Positions 1,373 to 8,138 of a stretch of DNA of 64,000 nucleotides are shown in pieces (position 1 is the stretch's first letter; each line of letters opens with the position of its first letter). The stretch is from Nostoc cf. commune SO-36 (GTDB taxonomy: Bacteria > Cyanobacteriota > Cyanobacteriia > Cyanobacteriales > Nostocaceae), in assembly GCF_023734775.1 (NCBI RefSeq), contig NZ_AP025732.1, forward strand, positions 5,640,501-5,704,500, read 5' to 3'. The notes beneath the pieces are model-generated. The model ran no database searches, was not told where the DNA came from, and saw only the letters and a program-made list of their open reading frames with translations. A program made the translations under genes and the position numbers.

Positions 1373-1434
1373 AAAAAAAACCCCCCAGTGAGCTTTAGCC
1401 AACCAGGGGAGTTAGTTATCAGGGTGCATCTACC
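1373..1434 (-). ncRNA. nsiR1: NsiR1 unit 1 (farthest from hetF)
   Basis: Read on the minus strand, TCCGGA at 1470-1465 lies 36 nt upstream of a predicted 5' end at GGTAGATGCACCCTGATAAC. The RNA ends with a CCCC/GGGG hairpin followed by eight T. The layout (TCCGGA at -35, about 60-nt RNA, U-tract terminator) matches the heterocyst-specific NsiR1 RNA known from Nostoc sp. PCC 7120, which comes from a tandem array upstream of hetF. The 5' end is inferred from spacing, not measured. Confidence 0.82.
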
Positions 1435-1505
1435 AATTAAATGTTCTTAAGTTGAACCCCATACTCCGGATGAATTTGTCTAAAGGCTAAGTTATTTTTT
1501 TAAAT

Positions 1506-1565
1506 AAAAAAAACCCCAGTTGGTGTTAACCTACTAGGGGAGTGAGTTATCAGGGTGCATCTACC
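1506..1565 (-). ncRNA. nsiR1: NsiR1 unit 2
   Basis: TCCGGA lies at 1601-1596 and the predicted 60-nt RNA starts 36 nt downstream. The terminator hairpin runs from CCCCTAGTAGG to CCAACTGGGG and is followed by T8. The stem is close to continuous, with one bulge and one mismatch. Nearly identical to unit 3 in the flanking spacer, which suggests recent unit duplication. Confidence 0.85.
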
Positions 1566-1636
1566 AATTAAATGTTCTCAAATTGAACACCATACTCCGG
1601 ATAAATTTGTCTAAAGGCTAAGTTATTTTTTTAAAT

Positions 1637-1695
1637 AAAAAAACCCCAGTTGGTGTTAACCTACTAGGGGAGTCAGTTATCAGGGTGCATCTACT
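1637..1695 (-). ncRNA. nsiR1: NsiR1 unit 3
   Basis: TCCGGA lies at 1731-1726, 36 nt before the predicted 5' end (AGTAGATGCACCCTGATAAC). A terminator hairpin with a T7 tract follows. The promoter spacer differs from unit 2, but the -35 motif and its distance are kept. Confidence 0.82.
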
Positions 1696-1757
1696 AATAA
1701 TCTTTTCTAGGGGCTACCAGTATTTTCCGGAGAAAATGGTTAAAATCAGGGTTAATG

Positions 1758-1786
1758 GCGGTGTCTATGAAGGGCTACGCCTAAGC
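1758..1786. repeat. Diverged copy of a 29-bp interspersed repeat
   Basis: GCGGTGTCTATGAAGGGC... is a degenerate copy of the repeat found perfectly at 39934-39962 and within hetF (4012-4040) and murT (12489-12517). It lies between NsiR1 units 3 and 4. Confidence 0.55.
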
Positions 1787-1792
1787 AACTAG

Positions 1793-1851
1793 AAAAAACC
1801 CCCAGTGGGTGTTAGCCTACTAGGGGAGTTAGTTATCAGGGTGCATCTACC
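1793..1851 (-). ncRNA. nsiR1: NsiR1 unit 4, -35 motif altered
   Basis: The RNA part and terminator hairpin are intact, with A6 on the plus strand giving the T tract. The -35 hexamer at 1887-1882 reads TCCGGT on the minus strand instead of TCCGGA, at the usual 36-nt distance from the predicted 5' end. Promoter strength may be reduced. Confidence 0.72.
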
Positions 1852-1931
1852 AATAATCTCTTCTAAAGTGAATGGGTGGCTACCGGATAAATTAGCAAAC
1901 GTTGAAGATGTTACTGTTTGTTTATTCAGAG

Positions 1932-1970
1932 AAAAACCTCAGAGGGGTTAGTTATCAGGACAGACTTACC
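1932..1970 (-). ncRNA. NsiR1 unit 5, degenerate
   Basis: A shortened copy keeps part of the 5' segment and a reduced CCTC/GAGG hairpin with T5. The position where TCCGGA should sit (about 2006-2001) carries no match, so this unit probably has no promoter. Confidence 0.5.
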
Positions 1971-2088
1971 AATTAAGTGACCAGTGTGCTGCCTTACAAA
2001 ATGCCTGTGTCAGGGTTAATTAACATCGCCGCATCTCCCCTTCTTTGCATCAAAGCGTCTTTATGAGGCTAAGAATTATGCAATTTAA

Positions 2089-2206
2089 GGACTTCCAGTA
2101 AAAAAACATCCCATCCCTGCGGGACGCTCCGCGAATGTAGAGGCGCAAGACCTTGCGCCCCTACAAATCTACAAATAATTTGGGGTAATTTATTTTTTGT
2201 AAGTCC
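2089..2206. mobile_element. MITE-like insertion inside the NsiR1 array
   Basis: About 118 bp bounded by imperfect inverted ends (GGACTTCCAGTAAAAAA on the left, TTTTTTGTAAGTCC on the right). It contains a second inner inverted repeat, GTAGAGGCGCAAG/CTTGCGCCCCTAC. It has no coding capacity. It lies in the unusually long gap between units 5 and 6 (305 bp against about 135 bp elsewhere). Confidence 0.55.
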
Positions 2207-2236
2207 CTTAAAAACCGATTAGCTTACTTCCTGTAC

Positions 2237-2296
2237 AAAAAAACCCCCAGTGGGCCTTAGCCAACCAGGGGAGCTAGTTATCAGGGTGCATCTACC
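2237..2296 (-). ncRNA. nsiR1: NsiR1 unit 6
   Basis: TCCGGA lies at 2332-2327, with 36 nt to the predicted 5' end GGTAGATGCACCCTGATAAC. The terminator hairpin CCCC...GGGGG is followed by T7. All elements are intact. Confidence 0.83.
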
Positions 2297-2370
2297 AATT
2301 AAATGTTCTAGGCTTAACCATCATGCTCCGGATAAATTTATTAGAAAATTAATTGTTGTAGTGTGTCAAT

Positions 2371-2433
2371 AAAAACAAGAGTGGATGTTAACTGAATTAG
2401 GGAAGTTAAAGATCAAGGGACATCCATCTATAT
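2371..2433 (-). ncRNA. NsiR1 unit 7, degenerate
   Basis: Only scattered identity to the other units remains: AAAAAC, GTGGATGTTAAC and GATCAAGG on the plus strand. The terminator stem is weak, and the -35 position near 2464-2469 (TTCTGG on the plus strand) is only a loose match. Probably a dead copy. Confidence 0.4.
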
Positions 2434-2510
2434 AATCAAGTATTCTAGAATTAAGCACTATTTTCTGGTAGAGAATATCTGCGTCAGAAGTTGCTGTCGT
2501 TTGCCCAAAC

Positions 2511-2571
2511 AAAAAAAACCCCTAGTGGGTGTTAGCCAACTAAGGGAGTTGAAGATCAAGGTGCATCTACC
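2511..2571 (-). ncRNA. nsiR1: NsiR1 unit 8 (nearest to hetF)
   Basis: TCCGGA lies at 2607-2602, with 36 nt to the predicted 5' end GGTAGATGCACC. The terminator hairpin has a variant stem (CCCTTAG...CTAGGGG) followed by T8. This unit starts about 180 bp upstream of the hetF start codon on the opposite strand, so a hetF transcript starting upstream of it would carry its antisense sequence. Confidence 0.82.
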
Positions 2572-2754
2572 AATTAAGTGTTCTAGTCCCAAGTAATCCG
2601 ATCCGGATCAAAGTTGTAAAGGCAGGAAAAACCAAAACAGCACCGAATCAGAAACATTCAGGGGCGCGATGCATCTAAATTATCAGAGGGAGCGAAAAAT
2701 CGACTTGAAACTTTCGCGTTTCAAACCAGATTTAGGAGGCGAACACGAGAAACT

Positions 2755-5277
2755 GTGACCCAGGAATTCCACATTTCGGTAACTCCTGTAGGGCAAAATG
2801 ACTACTTGGTGCGGACGGAACAAGTCGCGCCTGGGGTACCATTGGCAGAAGAATTGGTGACTTGGCCTATAGCCGATTGGTTGATGGCTGCTGGGCATTT
2901 AATGAATGACCCGTTGAAGTCGGTTTTGCAAGGAGATCCGTATGCTTCTGGCGGGCATGAAAGCGACATCGCCAGAAACTCTGTTAATTTGGTGGCGTTG
3001 GGTCAACAATTTTATAATGCCCTATTTCAAGGCACTCTCAGAGATAGTTGGATTACTGCCCAAGGTATTGCCCAGAACCATCAACAAGTACTACGCTTAC
3101 GTTTGGGGCTAAAGGACACTAGGTTAGCTCGTTTGCCTTGGGAAGTGATGCACGCAGGCGATCGCCCTTTGGCTACTGGCCCTTATGTGGCTTTTTCTCG
3201 CTTCCAAAGTGGAATTTTGGGGGCTTCGCCTTTGCGATCGCATATACCCACACCACGAGCAGAAGGTGGTGTAAAAGTATTAATGGTAATTGCTTCTCCC
3301 TCAGATCAAGTCCGTCTTGATTTACAGAAACAGGAAGCTATCAAACTGCAAGCAGAACTTCACCGTCAAACATCACGACTTGCTGAAGGTAGCAGTCGTT
3401 TCCCAGAAATTGAACTCACTGTATTAGATCAACCAGGACGGGAAGAACTGACGCAAGCCCTAGAACAAGGCAGATACCACGTTCTACACTACTCTGGTCA
3501 TAGTAATTTAGGCAATAATGGCGGAGAAATTTATCTTGTTAGTCGCAGAACTGGCTTAACGGAAATTTTGACTGGGGACGATCTGGCAGGTTTGCTTGTC
3601 AACAATAATATCCAAATGGCAGTGTTTAATTCCTGCTTGGGGGCGTACACAGCTGCATCTAATGCCTCTGGAGATACTGGCGAACGAAATCTCGCAGAAA
3701 GTCTGGTGAAGCGGGGAATTAGAAGCGTTTTGGCGATGTCAGAACGGATTCCAGATGAAGTGGCGTTGACGCTTACACAATTGTTTTACCGCAATTTGAG
3801 CCAGGGATATCCAGTAGATTTGTGTGTCAGTCGGGTGCGCCAAGGATTAATTTCTGCTTATGGTTCTCACCAGATGTACTGGGCATTACCGATTTTATAT
3901 CTCCAGCCAGAATTTGACGGTTTTCTCAGCCAGGAAACTGAGTTATCTCAAAGTGCCGAGTCGCTGAATCAATATAGTTCGCCTTTAGGCATAACTTCCA
4001 CAATGTACTCTGCGATGTCTACGACGGGCTACGCCAACGCCGATGATACTGAGATGGCTTTAGGAATGGAGGATATGATTCCTTCTGGTTTGACGCGTGA
4101 CTCTTCTGGGTTGGACTGGCTGGGTGAAGATACTTGGGGCGATCTGGTTGATGAAATTGAGTATGATGACCCAAGTTATGAAGAAGATTCTGCCATAGTT
4201 TCGGATTTGTTTCGTCAGTTAGATAACCAAAAAGCCTCAACTGAACCGGATCAACAAATCCACGAAAATAGTCTTCACCAAAGCCAGGTTTCAGAGGAAA
4301 TGACTTCTTTGCCAGAGGAAGCAGACTTATGGGGCGAAGTTCCACCGCCGCCACCTGCAACTGGTGGGAACCTTGAAGAAAAGTGGCAAAATTCTAATTC
4401 TTTGCGTTCGCAACCAGCCCCACCAAGAAATCGTACCCGTCGCCGCAAGCTGTGGCCGATTGTCGGTATTGTGGGGATCAGTGCGATCGCAGCTGCGATC
4501 GGTTTAAATTGGTGGTGGCAAAATCGACCCCAAGCAATGCCGAAAATACCAGTAATTCCTACCCAATCTCTACCTGATTCTCAACCGATTCAAAAACAGC
4601 CAAACATCGATTTAGAAACAGCAGCGACTGGGATTGTCACCGCTACTGCTACGGAAAAATTGAGCCAGGGTGAGTTGCAAGGTGGGTTGTTAGCTGTAGA
4701 AGAATTACTCAATCGGGGCGCACTAGCTGCGGCTGAAACTTCCTTAAAACTAATTCCCAGTAAACAAGCTGACGATCCATCTGTGAACTTTTACAAGGGA
4801 CGATTAGCTTGGCAGTCTATTCAAACTGGAGACAATAACTATAGCGTTGATGATGCCCGCCGTTACTGGGAAACTGCTGCCAAAGCTAAACCCGAATCGC
4901 TTTTGTATAATAACGCTTTGGGATTTGCCTACTACACAGAGGGGAATCTGAATCGCGCCAATGATTCTTGGTTCAAAGCTTTGAATTTAGCTCTCAAAGA
5001 ACAGAACACAAATTCAACATCCACAAAGACAGCAGTGCCTCAAGATGCTTTAACTTCTTATGCTGGTTTAGCTCTTGGATTGTATAAATCTGCACTTAGT
5101 CAATCTAGTGGGAAGCAGACGCAATATCTGAATGAAGCGATCAAATTGCGGCAAATGGTTCTCAAGTCTGATCGAGAAAATTTCCAGGTAGATAAATTAG
5201 CTAAAAATTGGCTGTGGACGGAGAAGGCGATCGCAGATTGGCGATCGCTCCTTCAGGAGAAAGGTGAAGAGCAGTAA
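2755..5277 (+). CDS. hetF: HetF, CHAT-domain (caspase-like) heterocyst differentiation protein
   Basis: An 840-aa protein starting at GTG with AGGAGG about 15 nt upstream. An N-terminal region (1-170) leads into a CHAT peptidase fold (about 170-395) with the His of HYSGHSNLG (H249) and the Cys of FNSCLGA (C294) as the probable catalytic dyad. A low-complexity acidic linker (about 410-555) follows, then one transmembrane helix (about 565-585, after RTRRRKLWP), and a C-terminal TPR-like helical region to the end. In Nostoc sp. PCC 7120, HetF is needed for heterocyst formation and influences HetR levels. Identification rests on protein architecture plus the NsiR1 array directly upstream. A 29-bp interspersed repeat encodes about ten linker residues (SAMSTTGYANA), an oddity not expected in all orthologues. 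Confidence 0.9.
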   Translation: MTQEFHISVTPVGQNDYLVRTEQVAPGVPLAEELVTWPIADWLMAAGHLMNDPLKSVLQGDPYASGGHESDIARNSVNLVALGQQFYNALFQGTLRDSWITAQGIAQNHQQVLRLRLGLKDTRLARLPWEVMHAGDRPLATGPYVAFSRFQSGILGASPLRSHIPTPRAEGGVKVLMVIASPSDQVRLDLQKQEAIKLQAELHRQTSRLAEGSSRFPEIELTVLDQPGREELTQALEQGRYHVLHYSGHSNLGNNGGEIYLVSRRTGLTEILTGDDLAGLLVNNNIQMAVFNSCLGAYTAASNASGDTGERNLAESLVKRGIRSVLAMSERIPDEVALTLTQLFYRNLSQGYPVDLCVSRVRQGLISAYGSHQMYWALPILYLQPEFDGFLSQETELSQSAESLNQYSSPLGITSTMYSAMSTTGYANADDTEMALGMEDMIPSGLTRDSSGLDWLGEDTWGDLVDEIEYDDPSYEEDSAIVSDLFRQLDNQKASTEPDQQIHENSLHQSQVSEEMTSLPEEADLWGEVPPPPPATGGNLEEKWQNSNSLRSQPAPPRNRTRRRKLWPIVGIVGISAIAAAIGLNWWWQNRPQAMPKIPVIPTQSLPDSQPIQKQPNIDLETAATGIVTATATEKLSQGELQGGLLAVEELLNRGALAAAETSLKLIPSKQADDPSVNFYKGRLAWQSIQTGDNNYSVDDARRYWETAAKAKPESLLYNNALGFAYYTEGNLNRANDSWFKALNLALKEQNTNSTSTKTAVPQDALTSYAGLALGLYKSALSQSSGKQTQYLNEAIKLRQMVLKSDRENFQVDKLAKNWLWTEKAIADWRSLLQEKGEEQ
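4012..4040 (+). repeat. Interspersed 29-bp repeat inside hetF
   Basis: GCGATGTCTACGACGGGC and the following eleven bases match the repeat at 39934-39962 with one mismatch. It is translated in frame within the acidic linker of HetF. Confidence 0.75.
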
Positions 5278-5396: not shown

Positions 5397-8000
5397 TTAA
5401 TTCTCGGATGCTGGGACTCCATAAAAGAATAGAAGAAATACAAAGACAAACGCTGCAAATGCTCCTCCAGCTTTAATATTAGTTTTATTCAAAGGTACGT
5501 GTGCTTCTAAACCAAGACTACCTGTGAAAAAATAACCTGATATCCCAGCAAATATAGCTGCTAAAAATCTAATTATTGCTAAAGTGCTACCTTGCATTGC
5601 TCGTGGGTTGAGTACAAGAACAATAAAGACTGTTAAGACCGCCAGAGCCATAGCAAGAGCTATTCCACGTTCAGCAGGTGAAATTTGCGAGGATGGTTTA
5701 TGCTCTTCTCGTTGAGGATTATTTTCCGGTTCAAATCGTTTCGGCATATCTTCTGCTTTCTCTAGCTCCTTTCTATTCATCACATCATCAATTAAGCCCA
5801 AGACATCAATCATTTGATAGCTTTTTTGACATTGAATGCGTTCTTGCTTATCAGCTACAAACTGTCGCAATATGTCAAAGGGGTAAAAGTGTGGCTCTTG
5901 GTTATCTTTGCAAGTCACACAATTACAGGGAATTAACTTGTTGTACTTTAGTCGCTTGTAGGAGTCATGAATTTTATCGAGTTCATGTGTAACTATAGTC
6001 ATCAAATCTCTTTTGTGACGACCTGAGAATCGAATCTTAATCTCCCGCTTGCCGTAATATTCAATCACCTCTGCCTGCGTCTGGTCTTTGCTGAGAACAA
6101 CGCCGCTTTTCCAGACACATTTTTGTTCATTTATCAACTTATGCATGGCGACGATGAACTGGGTGATGATCCCCTTGGGCATGAACTCGTAAGTGTAACG
6201 CAGTATCAGGTTGTTGGTTTCATTCCACTTATAGGAGGGTTGATTTGCAGATAGCAGTTGTGGGGCAATATACTTTCCTTGGCTTCTAGGAATTTCATAA
6301 CACAGCTTGAAGTTGATCATCAGGCGCAATAGTTCATCATGCATCGTGGCGTATTCATCTTCACGCCAGATGTTTGTCAAGTCAGACCGTGTGAAACTGC
6401 CGAAGTTGCAAATAACCTTTTCATTATCCAGCACTTTGTAGACTGCATCAGTTCCCCACTTGGGTTTGAGGATGACGGTCTTATTCAAAAGTGGGTCTTC
6501 CTGGAAGTGCAAGCATACTCCCAAATCGTGCAGATAGCTGCTTAACGGCAACTTGTCATTTGTTTCGGTAAACCCATTTTGTTGACAGATGCTCAGGTAT
6601 TCATCCAAGCCGATGTAATTGCGTGAGTCACTTTCCAAAGCTTTCCGGACTTTAACCCAGGTTCTTGGGAGCGGACTGCCAATATGAGGCAAGCTTTGAA
6701 TATAAAGCTTGATTTGTTTTAAAACTTGTTCTAAACCTCTGTTAGTAGCAAGGTTCGTTGGTAAAGTTTCCTTCAAATTAGTAAACTGCCCCCGTAACTG
6801 GAGTTCATTAATTTCCCGGTGGCGGTCTTGTTTCTCATTTTTGATGATTAGCAGTGGACTGTTATCGCTCAACAGTTCCACCACATTCAACCAGTAATTA
6901 AAATCCGTGTCTTCCTTGCGGGTATCTGCCACTAAGACATAGAGGGAACGCTTGGTGAGGAAAAACTGGTGAGTTGCATGATAAATCTCTTGTCCCCCAA
7001 AATCCCAGATATTGACTCGAAATTCTTGCCCATTTTCCATTGGAAAACCCCACTGGATCACCTCAATTCCCTTCGTAGAGTCTTCCTCTCGGAGTTGATA
7101 ATTTACGTGTTCAATCTTTTTCGCCAGTGTTGTCTTCCCTGCGCCTCCTTCGCCGATAATTAGTAACTTTGCTTCATACAGATAATCTGTACCTTGTGCT
7201 TTCAGTTGCCGGAAATAATCCTTAATAGCCTTAATACCTTTTGCAACAATTTCTGGTGGTGGCTGTTCGATGGGGTTGTCCTTTAAATCCAGGGAATTGA
7301 GTTGTTGCAGATCAGCGATCGCTTCTGGCAGTGTCGTTAATTTGTTGAGGTTTAATTTCAGAGTGGTGAGTTGTTGCAGGCGGGCGAACCCTTCTGGCAG
7401 TGTGGTTAATTTGTTGCGGCTTAAATACAGGGTGGTGAGTTGTTGCAAGCGGGGGATCGCTTTTGGCAGTGTCGTTAATTGGTTACCGCTTAAACCCAGA
7501 GAAGTGAGTTGTTGCAGATTAGCGATCGTTTCTGGCAGTATCTTTAATTTGTTGAGGCTTAAATTCAGGGAAGTGAGTTGTTGCAGATTAGCGATCGCTT
7601 CTGGCAGTGTCCTTAATTGGTTGCGGCTTAAATTCAGGGAAGTGAGTTGTTGCAGATCAGTGATCGCTTCTGGCAGTGTCCTTAATTGGTTGCTGCTTAA
7701 ATCCAGGGAAGTGAGTTGTTGCAGATCAGCGATCGCTTCTGGCAGCGTCGTTAATTGGTTGAGGCTTAAATTCAGGGAAGTGAGTTGTTGCAGATCAGCG
7801 ATCGCTTCTGGCAGTGTCCTTAATTGGTTGTAGCTTAAATTCAAAACCTCCAACCATTTCAGTTCAAACACCTCAGCAGGAATTTCCGTTAATTTTTCCT
7901 TGTCATTAGTACTCCAATTATTGCTTAAATCTAGTTCTTTAAGCTTTTTCTGTTTCGCTTCTCGGATTTTTTTAAGGTAACGTTGAGGCGTATTTGCCAT
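5397..8000 (-). CDS. Membrane-anchored Roco protein (LRR-ROC GTPase-COR)
   Basis: About 867 aa from the ATG at 8000; a GTG four codons upstream is the alternative. Nine leucine-rich repeats of 23 residues (TLPEAIADLQQLTSL type, about 30-255) precede a ROC GTPase domain with P-loop GEGGAGKTTLAKK and G3 motif WDFGGQEIYHATHQF. A COR dimerisation region (about 430-700) follows. The C terminus (about 785-867) has three hydrophobic segments, predicting a membrane anchor; most bacterial Roco proteins are soluble. The LRR DNA is built of near-identical 69-bp modules, a sign of recent internal duplication. Substrate and partners are unknown. No operon partner: hetF is convergent. Confidence 0.9.
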   Translation of the reverse strand: MANTPQRYLKKIREAKQKKLKELDLSNNWSTNDKEKLTEIPAEVFELKWLEVLNLSYNQLRTLPEAIADLQQLTSLNLSLNQLTTLPEAIADLQQLTSLDLSSNQLRTLPEAITDLQQLTSLNLSRNQLRTLPEAIANLQQLTSLNLSLNKLKILPETIANLQQLTSLGLSGNQLTTLPKAIPRLQQLTTLYLSRNKLTTLPEGFARLQQLTTLKLNLNKLTTLPEAIADLQQLNSLDLKDNPIEQPPPEIVAKGIKAIKDYFRQLKAQGTDYLYEAKLLIIGEGGAGKTTLAKKIEHVNYQLREEDSTKGIEVIQWGFPMENGQEFRVNIWDFGGQEIYHATHQFFLTKRSLYVLVADTRKEDTDFNYWLNVVELLSDNSPLLIIKNEKQDRHREINELQLRGQFTNLKETLPTNLATNRGLEQVLKQIKLYIQSLPHIGSPLPRTWVKVRKALESDSRNYIGLDEYLSICQQNGFTETNDKLPLSSYLHDLGVCLHFQEDPLLNKTVILKPKWGTDAVYKVLDNEKVICNFGSFTRSDLTNIWREDEYATMHDELLRLMINFKLCYEIPRSQGKYIAPQLLSANQPSYKWNETNNLILRYTYEFMPKGIITQFIVAMHKLINEQKCVWKSGVVLSKDQTQAEVIEYYGKREIKIRFSGRHKRDLMTIVTHELDKIHDSYKRLKYNKLIPCNCVTCKDNQEPHFYPFDILRQFVADKQERIQCQKSYQMIDVLGLIDDVMNRKELEKAEDMPKRFEPENNPQREEHKPSSQISPAERGIALAMALAVLTVFIVLVLNPRAMQGSTLAIIRFLAAIFAGISGYFFTGSLGLEAHVPLNKTNIKAGGAFAAFVFVFLLFFYGVPASEN

Positions 8001-8138
8001 ACTGAGGTTCACTTGTTAACGAAAATTATATATAATGCCCCTGATTCGCTGGACAATCTCGCAACCATTAATATTTTGCACTAATCCCAACAACCGCCAC
8101 AGGTTAGAAACGTCTGGCTGATAGCGAAAGTCCTCTTA

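Follow-up and report, generated by a model that had tools for sequence, protein, structure and literature searches.

A tandem array of NsiR1 small-RNA genes opposite hetF in Nostoc cf. commune SO-36: a probable multicopy repressor of hetF, and perhaps of patU

Organization of the locus

The sequence analysed, hereafter the window, is a 64 000-nucleotide stretch of the Nostoc cf. commune SO-36 genome. The hetF gene (2755–5277, plus strand) has a GTG start, encodes 840 amino acids and was identified by the NCBIfam HetF model (NF045509; 1467 bits, cut-off 1200). It is preceded by a conserved AGGAGG (2734–2739, plus strand), which is its likely ribosome-binding sequence. Upstream of hetF and opposite to it, as an earlier note on this DNA had described, the Rfam NsiR1 family (RF02399, gathering score 39) gives six minus-strand matches with scores of 63.5–75.2 bits and E-values of 4e-13 to 3e-10 over 64 kb; in the whole 64 kb window these six (1374–2572) are the only Rfam matches above threshold. 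Copy 1, the nearest to hetF (2511–2572; 64.5 bits), comprises 62 nt including its terminator and has its 5′ end 183 nt upstream of the hetF start. Beyond it lie copies at 2236–2297 (71.4 bits), 1791–1852 (75.2 bits, the strongest family match of the six), 1635–1696 (63.5 bits; head TAGTAGATGCACC), 1505–1566 (65.9 bits) and, most distant from hetF, 1374–1435 (70.7 bits). A profile made from hetF-linked NsiR1 copies and run on 1.5 kb added two degenerate copies on the same strand, one at 2380–2424 (12.2 bits, E = 2.8e-4 in 1.5 kb; below Rfam detection) and a shortened one at 1940–1959 (9.4 bits, E = 0.0022 in 1.5 kb). The eight units of the earlier note, six of them intact-looking, are thus recovered as six Rfam matches and two degenerate pieces.

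Each of the six copies carries its own DIF1-type promoter, as had been proposed. The minus-strand hexamer starts 35 nt upstream of the Rfam 5′ end in 6/6 cases (the spacing of 36 nt given previously is the same geometry counted otherwise). It is TCCGGA in five, at 2602–2607 for copy 1 and at 2327–2332, 1726–1731, 1596–1601 and 1465–1470 for the copies at 2236–2297, 1635–1696, 1505–1566 and 1374–1435, and TCCGGT, likewise foreseen, for the copy at 1791–1852 (1882–1887). In all six the hexamer is followed by 16 nt and then by a (T)AGAAC-like hexamer, which is TAGAAC in copy 1. TCCGGA by itself is neither rarer nor commoner in the window than chance would give (six found, 8.0 expected); what exceeds chance in the array promoters is their constant spacing and not the frequency of the hexamer. 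The first 13 nt are common to the six copies, except that position 2 is A instead of G in a single copy. In the Rfam alignment the two best copies end with a GC hairpin and a U run, and U runs are visible by eye in all six; a simple terminator scan did not pick the hairpins of the NsiR1 copies.

A repeat-like insert with GC-rich palindromic stretches (∼2030–2215) divides the array between the copies ending at 1852 and starting at 2236. The far end of the array adjoins two overlapping-phase minus-strand ORFs (38–879) that resemble, by eye, a split IS630-type transposase. Downstream of hetF, a large minus-strand ORF (5397–8012) contains leucine-rich repeats and a GTPase-like stretch and appears ROCO-like by eye. 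The two degenerate copies and the insert could be taken to indicate an array that is decaying and has no effect in this strain, but promoter, head and terminator are retained in six copies and we regard decay as very improbable.

Comparison with known NsiR1 systems

NsiR1 of Nostoc sp. PCC 7120 is reported as an RNA of ∼60 nt encoded by 12 tandem copies upstream of hetF, each with its own DIF1 promoter, and its expression is HetR-dependent and heterocyst-specific (PMC9045159). The array in the window is alike in RNA length, in having a DIF1 promoter for each copy, in tandem arrangement and in lying upstream of and opposite to hetF. It differs in having six intact-looking copies rather than 12, in agreement with the larger PCC 7120 array mentioned in the earlier note, in that no two of the six are identical over the first 26 nt and the terminator, and in being split by the repeat-like insert. 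Nodularia spumigena CCY9414 likewise has a tandem NsiR1 array upstream of hetF, there with 12 repeats (PMC3610870). NsiR8/NsiR9, hetR, patS and patX share with NsiR1 a HetR-dependent or DIF1/HetZ-dependent expression, as described in PMC4734099 and PMC7377430, but lack the NsiR1 head and are not linked to hetF. Multicopy sibling sRNAs of other bacteria resemble NsiR1 in having several near-identical copies with shared targets (PMC9045159); unlike them, one NsiR1 copy is also antisense to the leader of its target.

The array is therefore ordinary for its kind, and the kind, the place, the orientation and the repression of hetF have already been published for PCC 7120; in this respect it adds one strain to a published system. 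To this the present analysis adds the fixed distance of copy 1, the leader element, the co-occurrence of NsiR1 and HetR, the unlinked siblings and the hetZ–patU motif. These surroundings make it testable what the many copies and unlinked siblings are for, and how proheterocysts manage without HetF, which otherwise clears PatU3.

The hetF leader and the mode of repression

Antisense control of hetF, suggested independently in the earlier note, is a sound idea for which PCC 7120 provides the published precedent: NsiR1.1 is antisense to the hetF 5′ UTR and inhibits hetF translation, and NsiR1.4 represses alr3234, a HetP-like gene, in trans (PMC9045159). The further suggestion that the hetF leader would complement every copy does not hold in PCC 7120, where the reported hetF start at −256 is inside nsiR1.2, so that only nsiR1.1 falls within the leader (PMC8406250). 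Copy 1 of the window occupies about −183 to −244 relative to hetF, and a start like that of PCC 7120 would again include one copy.

These leader limits favour a purely cis-acting arrangement, in which copy 1 represses hetF by full pairing and the other copies are spare or serve other targets. Conservation of the locus bears on this reading. We compared 81 hetF loci, consisting of the window and the best 80 of 154 relatives, a choice that weights the set toward close relatives, with Nostoc flagelliforme FACHB-838 the nearest (HetF identity 97%). Minus-strand NsiR1 copies, 515 in total, lie upstream of hetF in 75 of these 81 loci. The first NsiR1 5′ end is 177–187 nt before hetF in 61 of the 81, a fixed distance that suits cis action, and at 292–696 nt in 14; the six loci without upstream NsiR1 include one (L086) for which there are 393 nt of upstream sequence only. 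Of 456 hetF-linked copies from the same best-80-plus-window set, 306 have TCCGGA at precisely −35, 53 more have it between −38 and −32, and 97 lack it there. The variation in strength that PCC 7120 copies show on hetF and alr3234 (PMC9045159) also agrees with a purely cis-acting copy 1. Against it, 14 of the 75 loci that carry NsiR1 lack copy 1 or have it more than 290 nt away, the identical central copies of PCC 7120 partly affect hetF in trans, and a non-identical copy acts partly on hetF too (PMC9045159). A strong cis role is further opposed by PCC 7120 fusions that lacked nsiR1.1 or had its −10 box replaced, in which GFP changed little (PMC8406250); this result also counts against the overall mechanism proposed below. 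Control in cis alone is accordingly possible, though in our view rather doubtful.

Trans action through the NsiR1 head is the best reading, and the leader offers a plausible site for it. An element at −98 to −77 (2657–2678, plus strand), lying in conserved columns, is an imperfect complement of the head; read on the minus strand it resembles the head itself, which can therefore pair there. The predicted duplex in the window has an energy of −19.3 kcal/mol, matched by 3/400 leader shuffles and 4/400 head shuffles. Seven loci with an unrelated upstream sequence (L055, L070, L072, L078, L079, L085 and L092) were left out of the leader comparison, which thus covers 74 loci; these seven have a different hetF leader with common GAGCAT repeats, and five of them lack upstream NsiR1. 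Over the 74 loci, weighted column identity is 0.84–0.93 from −109 to −1, 0.76 in copy 1 and 0.54–0.71 in the remaining stretches above the leader. The sequence ATGCATCTA occurs in 65 of the 74 leaders, in a set that leans toward close relatives; GATGCATCTA occurs in only three of 11 leaders of further genomes of the same family and in none of 12 hetF loci of other families. Eighteen loci were tested for pairing between head and leader. In 14 the duplex outdid no fewer than 95% of leader shuffles, with 13 of these duplexes at the −98 to −77 element; in the remaining four (L057, L067, L075 and L080) it was no better than shuffles. When the best duplex over all copies was set against shuffles, support was weaker (mean z −1.4, 73 loci), and that duplex fell inside the scripted site limits in 40/73. 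No compensating changes in the head were seen where the leader site differs.

The conservation of the leader may have other causes: it could contain an upstream ORF, serve the copy-1 promoter as a DNA element, or terminate antisense transcripts coming from hetF. Conservation does reach well past the NsiR1 complement, and the minus strand of a possible leader hairpin, TTGAAAC-TTTCGC-GTTTCAA (2705–2724, plus strand; read from the sequence and without covariation support), is terminator-like with a U run (2728–2701). For the ORF, which starts with ATG at −86, the synonymous share is 0.186, the lowest of the three frames, and early stops occur in several relatives; it was rejected as a coupled leader peptide, as it has no codon pattern. 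Taken together, some cause other than NsiR1 binding is conceivable, but we would not favour it.

The same leader bases are also a point against the NsiR1 site, since they can pair with the hetF ribosome-binding region: GCAUCUAA pairs with UUUAGGAGGC when the leaders of the window and of some relatives are folded to minimum energy. If the element masked the ribosome-binding sequence, NsiR1 binding would free it and raise hetF translation, the opposite effect. Both strands are nearly invariant, so covariation cannot speak for the pairing, and a consensus fold of 27 leaders, itself without convincing covariation, took other pairs. The published effect in PCC 7120 is repression (PMC9045159), and unmasking by NsiR1 seems improbable.

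We thus consider it likely that the array is a tandem, multicopy set of trans-acting NsiR1 genes that represses hetF through the 5′ head. In the proposed mechanism the copies are separate genes, each with a DIF1-type promoter that has TCCGGA at −35 and each with a terminator; because of these promoters, they are expected to fire early in cells that are turning into heterocysts, as reported for PCC 7120. The near-invariant head UGGUAGAUGCACC would base-pair and lower hetF translation, copy 1 by full antisense pairing with the hetF leader and any copy by partial pairing with the conserved element at −98 to −77. The anatomy of NsiR1, its promoter geometry and its conservation are direct observations, and heterocyst-specific, HetR-dependent expression and hetF repression are carried over from PCC 7120 by analogy. 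We infer the second leader site and a dosage effect in trans; the near-identity of the first 13 nt in the six copies leaves such dosage possible.

Unlinked siblings and subtypes

A whole-genome search gave 11 NsiR1 matches, the six of the array and five unlinked to it. One sibling (C1:1578857–1578907; 50.7 bits) has TCCGGA at −35; three lie together (C1:6287611–6287958; 48.4, 33.0 and 33.7 bits) with CCCGGA in two and TCCTGA in the third; and the fifth (C1:4372883–4372935; 32.3 bits) has no −35 hexamer. Only two of these siblings score above the family cut-off, and all five retain (T/G/A)AGTAGATGCACC or TGGTAGATGCACC. Of the 12 occurrences of the 12-mer TAGATGCACCYT in 7.4 Mb, 11 are at NsiR1 loci; the backward control occurs once. 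The genome also contains hetR and one HetP-family locus, which may correspond to alr3234 or to hetP.

Two further subtypes were noticed in the loci examined. In the first, not linked to hetF, the head is followed by CCCTGGTTAAGC (L010:5858–5908, plus strand; also L130, L138, L141, L149 and L173–L176); it is found in genomes without a HetR match as well, where GCGGAA stands in place of TCCGGA. The other, AGTAGATGCACCCTGATGA, has a GAGAG hairpin and no DIF1 motif (L012:5884–5936, minus strand; L177–L179), and its Rfam scores are all weak.

Distribution of NsiR1 and HetR

The family search over related genomes that the earlier note had called for found NsiR1 in 198 of 291 genomes, in 181 of them above the cut-off (E-values up to 0.001); stricter filters were used here and no more than 17 candidates were scored in any genome, so copy numbers per genome are at-least values. 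One of 14 control genomes, E. coli, gave a match, below the cut-off. HetR_C was found in 164 of the 291 (163 above cut-off), and all 164 have NsiR1; 34 of the 291 have NsiR1 without HetR and 93 have neither (Fisher p = 1e-47, uncorrected for kinship). Judging from E-values, two HetR-positive genomes appear to be among the 17 sub-cut-off NsiR1 matches. Of 53 copies taken from ten HetR-positive genomes (one of them, G031, with a marginal HetR match), 36 have TCCGGA at −35; of 35 copies from 16 genomes that gave no HetR match, five do, and the commonest hexamers there are TCCTGA (12), TCCCGA (10) and GCGGAA (4); the genomes without a HetR match that keep TCCGGA include the incomplete G199 (82%) and G144 (97%). 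NsiR1 adjoins hetF in 12 loci of five other families (HetF identity 55–63%), and an NsiR1-like RNA has been reported in the non-heterocystous Limnospira (PMC8400943). The co-occurrence with HetR over many families suggests a role of the RNA in HetR biology wider than heterocysts, and the near-invariant head points toward a broader regulator connected with HetR.

The hetZ–patU junction as a candidate second target

The genome has 32 occurrences of the seed complement GGTGCATCTA, of which 11 are at the sRNA loci; the backward control occurs five times. Of the 19 other sites read, two closely precede an ORF start, one at the hetZ–patU junction (L207) and one at a RecQ-like ORF (L210). HetZ at the junction is certain (NF037963; 651 bits, cut-off 550). 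No NCBIfam model matched the following ORF, which we call patU by analogy, from the position described in PMC7377430. The site, ATCAGGTGCATCTAC, stops a few bases upstream of the patU ATG. Its duplex energy (−28.7) is second among the 19; the first (L198, −28.8), equal to it by energy, was discarded as it does not lie at a plausible gene start. When synonymous codons were redrawn across the hetZ–patU site, a duplex as good arose in 29/2000 cases.

The junction carries a second signal: TCCGGA stands exactly 16 nt before ATGAATAG, and this is kept across families, independently of the hetZ frame. We compared 59 junctions, from our genome and 60 more searched for HetZ, minus one in which the match stops short of the C-terminus (L237) and one more distant paralogue (L253). 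The pattern TCC[GT]GA-N16-ATGAAT[AG] is present in 54 of the 59 (28/28 of our own family and 26/31 of other families), even where hetZ stops upstream of it (L270, L279 and L283). Its spacing is that of the NsiR1 promoters, and a DIF1-spaced promoter here would start within patU. This placing of a DIF1-spaced motif across the start of patU predates our own family. The NsiR1-seed complement GTGCATCT is in the spacer before patU in 22/28 junctions of our own family and 7/31 of others. Codon conservation at the junction is high, not unique: GCA ranks third among 22 alanines and TCT fourth among 28 serines, and in the adjoining codons a serine ranks 21st of 28 and a threonine eighth of 16.

DIF1 promoters are reported to depend on HetZ, and PatU3 to bind HetZ (PMC7377430); HetF cleaves PatU3 (PMC12288457). 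The accessible text of PMC9045159 mentions neither patU nor hetZ, and the accessible literature naming both NsiR1 and patU yielded no link between them. NsiR1, made from DIF1 promoters that require HetZ, might pair just upstream of the patU start codon in the hetZ–patU mRNA; with patU blocked, HetZ would be released from its inhibitor and more DIF1 promoters would fire. NsiR1 would then be the RNA arm of the HetR/HetZ switch, with positive feedback on DIF1 promoters, a reading we hold tentatively and put forward as a bold lead that can be tested. Once patU is no longer translated, the committed cell would have no further need of HetF, the protease that clears PatU3; if true, this would explain why silencing of hetF by a heterocyst RNA is tolerable. 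Should NsiR1 silence patU as well, the core HetR–HetZ–PatU commitment loop would contain a small RNA. NsiR1 is viewed as a multicopy trans-acting RNA that represses hetF and perhaps patU. At the other site that closely precedes an ORF start (L210), 13 nt that perfectly complement the NsiR1 copy at 1635–1696 lie 19 nt upstream of the RecQ-like helicase ORF.
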